Of a DNA stretch of 64,000 nucleotides, positions 4,093 through 42,552 are shown piece after piece (the first letter of the stretch is position 1; each line of letters starts with the position of its first letter). Position numbers and translations under genes: made by a program. The notes under the pieces were generated by a model. The model was given only the letters and a program-made list of their open reading frames with translations, did no database searches and was not told the origin of the DNA. The stretch is from Bacteroidota bacterium (GTDB taxonomy: Bacteria; Bacteroidota; Bacteroidia; B-17B0; Aurantibacillaceae): positions 62,001 through 126,000 of the forward strand of contig CAUJCR010000012.1 of assembly GCA_963169355.1 (NCBI GenBank). The letters run 5' to 3'.

Positions 4093-4583
4093 TTTTTTAT
4101 AAAACTTTTTGTCTTGATACAAAAAGTTACAAAAAAATCAAGGCGCATAACCAGAATAGCATAGTGCGTAATCCAACACACAGGCTTTTGAGTGCGTGGA
4201 TTTTTATTTTTCGCAAATATAGCTGTGAGAAAATCGAAGGGCGGGCACGAGCGCTTCGTGGGATTTTAACCCGAAGTAGTTTGTAGGTTTCGTAGTGAAA
4301 GGTAAAATAAACAAAGGCATTGTGCAGCGCAGATTTAAGGACTGGAGAAATATTTATAATATTTTGAAGCCCGCAGAATCGAGCACGTACGATGACTGAA
4401 GTTTATTTTGACTTGTAATAGAAATCCTATAAACTACTTCGGGTTTATATCAGCGGTTTTGTTTGGCGAAGGAACGTGCGCTGAAAACAAAAATATCCTT
4501 CCGAAAAATAAAACGGTTTTGGATACTTTTGACGCCAAAAGTATCGTAAAAAGGTTTTTACTTTCTTTTCCTTGAAGCAAAAG
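4093..4583 (+). repeat. Dispersed composite repeat, copy A (interrupted by a MITE)
   Basis: This is one of three long copies (others at 5498-5881 and 14048-14310). It opens with hairpin H3 at 4103-4128 (stem AACTTTTTGT/ACAAAAAGTT, loop CTTGAT). A body follows, beginning CAGGCTTTTGAGTGCGTGGA and ending in a near-perfect palindrome H1 at 4522-4545 (GATACTTTTG...CAAAAGTATC). It finishes with a truncated H2 hairpin at 4562-4583, which directly abuts the stop codon of the ORF6N gene. Copy A differs from B and C by an extra block at 4268-4445. The copies share runs of dozens of identical bases, so spread was recent or has been homogenised. This repeat and the ORF6N gene account for all sequence between the genes here. 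Confidence 0.85.
4268..4445. mobile_element. 178-bp MITE-like element nested in repeat copy A
   Basis: The element starts AACCCGAAGTAGTTTGTAGG (4268-4287) and ends with the inverse of AACCCGAAGTAGTTTATAGG (4426-4445): 20-bp terminal inverted repeats with one mismatch. Copies B and C of the surrounding repeat lack it and read straight from GTGGGATTTT to ATCAGCGG, so the insertion is directly visible by comparison. It has no coding capacity. No clear target-site duplication is seen beyond T/A-rich flanks. A full-length transposase source is not in this window. Confidence 0.8.
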
Positions 4584-5099
4584 CTATCTCTCATTATAAC
4601 CTATTTTATTTCGCTTTTTTTGAGCTATTTCTTGTTTATCTTTTTGCAATAAGTAATTGATGGCTTCATACACATCATTAAACTGCTTATTGTAGGTGCT
4701 TTCAAGTTCTTTGAGTTTATCTGCAATTTCTTTATAGTTCAAGGCAAATTCTTTAAGGGAAATAAATGCTTCAACAATTGCAATGTTTACCTTGATTGCT
4801 TTATTACTTTTTAAAACACTAGCCAGCATAGTAACGCCATGTTCTGTAAAAGCATAAGGAGTAACGGTGGTGTTTCTTTTTGTTTGCACGGATGCGGTCG
4901 CAATTTTCGACCGCATATTTTCCCATTCTGTTATTGTAAGCCTAAACATAAATCGCTCTGGAAAACGCTCTATATTTCTCTTAACAGCCTCATTCAATCT
5001 TTTTGTTTGTACATCATAAAGTTCGGCTAAATCAAAGTCCAACATTATTTTTTGTCCTCTTATCTCATAAATCTTTGTTTGAATCACTTGTAAATGCAT
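4584..5099 (-). CDS. ORF6N domain-containing DNA-binding protein
   Basis: This 171-residue protein has the ORF6N signature near its N terminus: IYEIRGQKIMLDFDLAELYD, then TKRLNEAVKRNIERFPERFMF and YAFTEHGVTMLASVL (residues 12-115). A helical, probably coiled-coil tail (KEIADKLKELESTYNKQFN) follows. ORF6N is a phage-antirepressor-type DNA-binding domain, widespread as lone genes in Bacteroidota chromosomes; what this one binds is unknown. A TAATTTTG box (5130-5137, minus strand) is a plausible promoter -7 element. The gene is sandwiched between two H2-type repeat hairpins: its stop codon at 4584-4586 touches the hairpin ending at 4583, and another copy lies at 5199-5224. This suggests it was inserted into, or carried with, the repeat. 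Confidence 0.9.
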   Translation of the reverse strand: MHLQVIQTKIYEIRGQKIMLDFDLAELYDVQTKRLNEAVKRNIERFPERFMFRLTITEWENMRSKIATASVQTKRNTTVTPYAFTEHGVTMLASVLKSNKAIKVNIAIVEAFISLKEFALNYKEIADKLKELESTYNKQFNDVYEAINYLLQKDKQEIAQKKRNKIGYNER

Positions 5100-5292: not shown

Positions 5293-5461
5293 AACCCAAA
5301 ATATGTACAAGATAATCTATTCCGCCTCAAAATTTCTTCAAAACAGAACGCTTCGCCACTTTTTCTTTTTCAATATAGTGCGTACTATGCTTCAATCGTA
5401 AAAGTGTCTATTTTATTGAACTTTCGTTGCTCATAACGATTTCTAACACATAATTTGGGTT
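5293..5461. mobile_element. MITE-like element, family 2, copy 1 (169 bp)
   Basis: The ends are imperfect inverted repeats: AACCCAAAATATGT at 5293-5306 and, inverted, AACCCAAATTATGT at 5448-5461. The interior carries CGCTTCGCCACTTTTTCTTT, a small hairpin (ATAGT/ACTAT, 5375-5388) and CGTAAAAGT...CTATTTTATTGAACTT. The same order of blocks, with diverged sequence, occurs at 42256-42421. It is non-coding. Family membership rests on these two copies only. Confidence 0.55.
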
Positions 5462-5497: not shown

Positions 5498-5881
5498 GAT
5501 TGTTCGAAGCGCTTCGCGAACAGCCCGAACAATCTACGCACATTCCAACGCTTTTGATAATATTTGATTTTAACGTGAAATTTTAAAATGCCATGGTGCT
5601 AACCGGAATAGCTTAATGTAAAAAAACATACAACAACCCCACCCACAGGCTTTTGAGTGCGTGGACTTTTATTTTTCGCAGATATAGCTGTGAGAAAATC
5701 GAAGGGCGGACACGAGCGCTTTGTGGGATTTTTGAATCAGCGGTTTTGTTTGGCGAAGGAAAGTGCGCAGAAAACAAAAATATCCTTCCGAAAAATAAAA
5801 CGGTTTTGGATACTTTTGGCGCCAAAAGTATCGTAAAAGAAATTTATCTTTTACTTTCTTTTGCCTTAAAGCAAAAGAAAC
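5498..5881 (+). repeat. Dispersed composite repeat, copy B
   Basis: The copy opens with a large hairpin (GATTGTTCG 5498-5506 with CGAACAATC 5526-5534, enclosing the palindrome CGAAGCGCTTCG). The block ATTTTAAAATGCCATGGTGC and the repeat body (5646 onward) follow. It ends with the perfect 24-bp palindrome H1 at 5809-5832 (GATACTTTTGGC and its inverse) and hairpin H2 at 5855-5880 (TTTCTTTTGC/GCAAAAGAAA). This copy lacks the MITE of copy A. A reading frame across the body (MSAWTFIFRRYS...) is shared with copy C, but only because the DNA is repeated. Confidence 0.85.
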
Positions 5882-14047: not shown

Positions 14048-14310
14048 CATTTTAAAATGCCATAGCGCTAACCGGAATAGTTTGATGTAATAAAATATAC
14101 AACAAACCCACCCACAGGCTTTTGAGTGCGTGGATTTTTATTTTTCGCAGATATAGCTGTGAGAAAATCGAAGGGTGGCAAGAGCGCTTCGTGGGATTTT
14201 TGAATCAGCGGTTTTGTTTGGCGGAGGAAAGTGCGCAGAAAACAAAAATATCCTTCCGAAAAATAAAACGGTTTTGGATACTTTTGCCGCCAAAAGTATC
14301 GTAAAAAAAT
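14048..14310 (+). repeat. Dispersed composite repeat, copy C
   Basis: The copy begins ACATTTTAAAATGCCATAGC and continues through the body (CAGGCTTTTGAGTGCGTGGA at about 14116) to H1 at 14277-14300 (GATACTTTTG, then CCGC, then CAAAAGTATC). It is nearly identical to copy B in the body, including the uninterrupted junction GTGGGATTTTTGAATCAGCG. The H2 hairpin is missing at this end. The gap between the toxin stop and the next gene is fully explained by this repeat. Confidence 0.85.
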
Positions 14311-42136: not shown

Positions 42137-42255
42137 CTATTAAAAATTATTTTATAAAAAATATGGTCTTAAGCTTGTATTTTTCTGATAATCAATAAAA
42201 TAATTTTATTAGTCATATAAGTTTCATATAGCTCAGGGTCAAATTTGTAATTAAA

Positions 42256-42421
42256 TCCAAATTATGCATTAGCAATTCTATTACGAGCTAAAATCCCTGC
42301 AAAATATGAAGCTTCGCAACTTTTTCTCAATCACCGTAGCAGTGGCTACGCTTCATTCGTAAAAGTTCATATTTTATTGGACTTTTACTATCATTACTAA
42401 TTTCTAATGCACAATCTGGGA
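42256..42421. mobile_element. MITE-like element, family 2, copy 2 (166 bp)
   Basis: The ends are long imperfect inverted repeats: TCCAAATTATGCATTAG (42256-42272) and, inverted, TCCCAGATTGTGCATTAG (42404-42421). The interior has AGCTTCGCAACTTTTTCTCA, the hairpin CGTAGC/GCTACG (42335-42350) and CGTAAAAGTTCATATTTTATT, in the same order as 5293-5461. The apical hairpin pairs with different bases in the two copies. No gene is present in 42137-42552; outside this element the stretch is plain AT-rich sequence. Confidence 0.55.
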
Positions 42422-42552
42422 TAAAAAAGTTATCGATTAGCTAAGATATGATATCAATTCAAAGGCACATTATTCGCTATATCTTACAATTTAAAGTCAA
42501 TAAATCTACGTAAAAAATTAAGTTCTCAATTCCCTCCTACAACACGAGAAAA

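Follow-up and report, generated by a model that had tools for sequence, protein, structure and literature searches.

Taken together, our results argue that a 178-bp block at positions 4268-4445 of the window (the whole 64,000-nucleotide stretch of DNA that was analysed) is very probably a non-autonomous hairpin MITE belonging to the type that IS1380-family DDE transposases mobilise. As described in the initial annotation, the block is bounded by 20-bp terminal inverted repeats with one mismatch in 20, and end comparison places AACCCGAAGTAGTTTGTAGG at 4268-4287 on the plus strand and AACCCGAAGTAGTTTATAGG, as the minus-strand reading, at 4426-4445. The same annotation had seen no transposase in the element, and we likewise detected no coding sequence (zero ORFs of at least 80 aa). 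With its terminal inverted repeats, target duplication and empty site, with no transposase gene, and with a length below the MITE bound of ~600 bp, the block shows features by which MITEs are recognised. The boundaries 4268-4445 take in two target-duplication bases on each side, namely the outer AA/TT. Because the exact 5-bp duplications of the relatives described below include several that are neither TTTAA nor TTAAA, we set the border of the element at CC...GG, and the hairpin MITE proper, here called type C, is thus a 174-bp element at 4270-4443 on the plus strand. In a survey of duplications, the left copy of the target duplication reads TTTAA (4265-4269) and the right copy TTTAT (4444-4448), one mismatch apart.

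The element interrupts a dispersed repeat, the two halves of which were delimited by repeat search at 4170-4267 (left; G000:C12:66170-66267) and 4449-4551 (right; G000:C12:66449-66551), both on the plus strand. Repeat search and junction alignment identified two further plus-strand copies in the window, at 5590-5840 and 14059-14306, in which the block is missing, as previously reported, and the empty junction GGGATTTTTGAATCAGCGG reads through unbroken; the left flank of the window element shares 92% identity with these two copies and the right flank 94-97%. Junction-spanning copies that are empty number ten in the host's own genome, one in the sister species G018 and two in a second sister species, G008, with the own-genome and G018 junctions near-identical and the G008 copies more diverged. 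Aligning the empty sites, a check that the initial annotation had proposed for finding a target duplication, showed that TTTAA/TTTAT is absent as a duplication from the empty site. These 13 empty copies, together with the one-mismatch 5-bp duplication, establish that the block inserted into a dispersed repeat that was already there and is not the remainder of a deletion elsewhere, as had been claimed for it. It is highly improbable that the block is instead ancestral to the repeat and was precisely deleted from the empty copies: all four genome copies do share one site of the repeat, as an ancestral module would, but most copies lack the block (ten own copies empty versus four filled, where the initial annotation had noted that an ancestral block would be found in most), the two diverged G008 copies are empty like the near-identical own-genome and G018 ones, the near-duplication is present at the filled site and not at the empty one, and homologues of the element lie at unrelated sites elsewhere. 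Deletion in the empty copies was therefore ruled out by the empty own-genome and sister-species copies and the target duplication.

Four copies of the inserted element are present in the host genome (G000; 3.2 Mb, 61 contigs), two of them full (on C12 and C3) and two partly matched by DNA search (C12:182899 and C55:15270), and all four occupy one and the same junction in the dispersed repeat. Since the two full copies have identical junction bases, elements that are 97.8% identical and flanks that are 93.5-95.5% identical, they show that the element inserted once and was then multiplied as its host repeat was duplicated, rather than by repeated transposition. Type C is accordingly seen at a single target site only, copied with the host repeat, whereas its dispersed homologues bear other ends, and the mobility of type C as such rests on one event. 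Taken by itself, the window element is nothing unusual: a MITE that inserted once and became fixed within a repeat.

The repeat into which the element inserted is modular, in that blocks 1-77 and 187-251 of it (numbered along the copy at 5590-5840) are also found alone as partial matches in the host genome, the latter block containing the palindrome GATACTTTTGGCGCCAAAAGTATC. A gene for an ORF6N-domain protein, a phage-type regulator (4584-5099, minus strand), separates the filled copy from the first empty one. A degraded MITE with type-B ends, at 5293-5461 of the window, recurs at the same spot of a wider composite repeat at several loci (L031, L049, L237 and L238), with flanks like CAAGGC... 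and AAAATTTCA; this wider repeat appears to have taken up two different MITEs.

Homologues of the window element, ~65-75% identical to it, were found in four other genomes, all of genus g2 of the same family (G020, G035, G053 and G056; 100 genomes searched, host included), and those of G035 and G020 occupy many unrelated sites. These homologues, type A, have the ends AACCGTAAATAGACAGT, are mostly ~178-180 bp long and carry 5-bp target duplications of the TTTAA type; they share with the window element the core GCGCAG...GAGGACTG...GAAGACCGCAG...GAGCA and differ from it in their ends. A covariance model matched 11 elements in G020 and 13 in G035, the strongest at E values of 1e-49 to 2e-51. In the host genome it matched five elements, and three further families of the class yielded single matches. 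In the window, the model recognised two related hairpin MITEs on the minus strand that have type-B ends: the degraded element at 5293-5461 (AACCCAAATTATG...; E 4e-13) and one at 42254-42422 (E 4e-10), which shares 96% identity across 168 bp with a further type-B element (locus L230). Type-B ends are defined by AACCCARATTATGCATTAG, which gave 125 end matches in the host genome compared with 7 for a reversed control pattern. The type-C ends of the window element, AACCCGAAGTAGTTTRTAGG / CCCGAAGTAGTTTRTAGG, form a third set separate from both, being alike at ~12 of 20 positions to type A and at ~14 of 20 to type B when compared by eye. Among elements with both ends read, exact 5-bp duplications were seen at 12 of 18 elements of type A and at 14 of 22 of type B (the type-B count includes a full insertion sequence in G109), and the duplications other than TTTAA/TTAAA include TTCAA, TTTAC, TGAAA and TTTAT. 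Two copies of a different MITE in the host genome (G000:C6:202556-202741 and G000:C28:83708-83892) combine type-A ends and exact TTTAA duplications with an unrelated core. Hairpin MITEs of this kind are also found in other families of the class (L244 in G210 and L245 in G265); their ends read AACCCGGATTATGCATTAG or AACCCGGAATATGCAGTAG, and their 5-bp duplications are exact.

The IS1380 hypothesis was drawn first from these ends and duplications and then tested. In the congener G008, an intact 438-aa IS1380-family transposase gene lies between perfect 17-bp inverted copies of AACCGTAAATAGACAGT, at the second of which the contig ends; its product scores 256 bits against NCBIfam NF033539 (cut-off 180). 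In G109, a 437-aa IS1380 gene, the product of which is 48% identical to the G008 transposase, lies between type-B ends AACCCARATTATGCATTAG and is flanked by an exact TTCAA duplication. NCBIfam assigns both intact genes to the IS1380 family. The host genome itself holds an IS1380 remnant (PF13701 match) ~100 bp inside an upstream end, AACCGTAAACAGACAGT, that is a one-mismatch copy of AACCGTAAATAGACAGT. This remnant (G000:C47, L101 ~2127-2158) breaks off within the gene, at the end of a type-B MITE. Thus, the search proposed in the initial annotation for a transposase gene flanked by the same ends yielded IS1380 at the A and B ends of the relatives but none at type-C ends. Among 87 genomes of the family, no IS1380 transposase with type-C ends was found, the only matches outside the own genome being single chance ones, and the other IS1380 loci of the family have no type-C ends. 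Exact 17-bp matching of type-C ends against the genomes of 84,980 species returned 13 stretches, of which none had a credible partner end, and a search for plasmid relatives of the element returned none. Ends shared with an IS1380 transposon were consequently seen for types A and B and not for type C. Type-A and type-B MITEs resemble the insertion sequences found over no more than the terminal 17-30 bp and are therefore not simple deletion derivatives of them.

The initial annotation had stated that the element must be moved in trans. That the relatives are dispersed and share their ends with IS1380-family insertion sequences speaks for this and makes movement in trans our best inference for the window element, judging from the sequences; no transposase with exact type-C ends was found to match. 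IS1380-type transposons bearing the ends of the relatives are the likely enzyme source for this kind of element. For the type-C ends we infer a cognate IS1380 transposase, and cross-mobilisation of type C by the type-A or type-B enzymes is possible. In our model, an IS1380-type transposase supplied in trans would bind both CCCGAAGTAGTTTRTAGG ends, excise the element and join it, once, at a TTTGA/TTTAA-like 5-bp target; the filled repeat would then have been duplicated as a unit, giving rise to the four same-site copies in the host genome.

The full 178 nt fold into a single hairpin, an imperfect palindrome with an RNA folding energy of -69.3 kcal/mol compared with -32.9 +/- 3.8 kcal/mol for shuffled controls (z -9.65), and the DNA fold gives a z of -8.8. 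The 51-nt arms are 78% complementary, so that pairing reaches beyond the 20-bp ends. In an alignment of 12 hairpin sequences, standard pairs make up 96.8% of pair cells, and compensating changes on both sides are seen at 30 of the 65 pairs, a number that exceeds all 500 shuffles and far exceeds slid versions of the alignment, although these covariation counts are inflated by the relatedness of the rows. The great stability of the hairpin and its compensating changes are also what would be expected if the block were a structured RNA gene or a regulatory RNA hairpin and not the relic of a transposon. We consider this very unlikely, because no Rfam family matched at gathering level (sub-threshold matches were at chance level only), because the relatives carry insertion-sequence ends and target duplications at scattered sites, and because arm pairing is maintained in palindromic MITEs without an RNA role. 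We make no claim of an RNA function: full-length self-complementarity is conserved across the relatives, and it may have persisted by selection or by arm-to-arm copying that keeps the arms matched.

GTAG tetranucleotides inside the element, together with two Y1_Tnp genes in the genome, might likewise suggest a palindrome of the REP type, mobilised by a RAYT (Y1 HUH) enzyme. REPs, however, are 20-40 bp long, bear the tag GTAG or CGTC at one of their ends and are tied to a Y1 gene (PMC3733652), while the element studied here is 178 bp long, has a DDE-type 5-bp target duplication and has no match on the Y1-bearing contigs (C7 and C42). On these three counts, length, duplication and absence from the Y1 contigs, we rejected a REP/RAYT origin, which is extremely improbable.

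The host genome also contains a full-length hybrid hairpin MITE (C55:15142-15310; L252) with a type-B left end and core and a type-C right end, and the dispersed repeat adjoins only its type-C side. This single case is consistent with recombination of a B element with the C element, and such recombination could be one route for the swapping of ends. Given that the window element and the g2 homologues share their core and not their ends, and that the hybrid fits, we speculate, tentatively and as a possibility that we rate as rather doubtful, that a class-wide superfamily of hairpin MITEs swaps its outer ~20 bases, keeps its core and uses different IS1380 transposases in turn. Full-length hairpin MITEs, some of which reach dozens of copies in a genome, are tied by their ends and duplications to specific IS1380 subtypes, and the pairing of a shared core with different ends makes it possible to test in nature how non-autonomous elements keep up with their transposases.

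Two points are modestly new here: in this bacterial class, full-length hairpin MITEs are linked to IS1380, and ends have diverged on a shared core. In the titles and abstracts of open papers, a partial coverage that is not proof of absence, we found no account of hairpin MITEs linked to IS1380 in this class, and IS1380 is unmentioned in a review of prokaryotic MITEs (PMC10969869). IS1380 insertion sequences (PF13701, NF033539) have the same 17-19 bp inverted ends (AACCGTAAATAGACAGT or AACCCARATTATGCATTAG) as the homologues, and 5-bp target duplications are common to the homologues and to IS1380 elements of the same bacterial family. For IS1247, an IS1380 element, 16/13-bp ends and a duplication of 5 bp are on record (PMC3281130); the window element likewise shows a 5-bp AT-rich target duplication, but differs in having no coding sequence and in type-C ends that match no insertion sequence found. 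Cardinium MITECca01, which comes from the same phylum if the window belongs to the Bacteroidota, as its gene content and relatives indicate, is also a MITE tied to a parental insertion sequence, ISCca4 (PMC9769881), a likeness by description. Hairpin MITEs in general have several bacterial examples. ERIC-like long palindromes are one, and Coxiella QMITE2 (PMC10969869) is another that, like the window element, is short, AT-rich and gene-free, forms a strong stem-loop and has terminal inverted repeats and direct repeats. Compared with such hairpin MITEs, the element described here and its relatives stand apart in pairing over their full length, in core motifs conserved across genera and in their link to IS1380.
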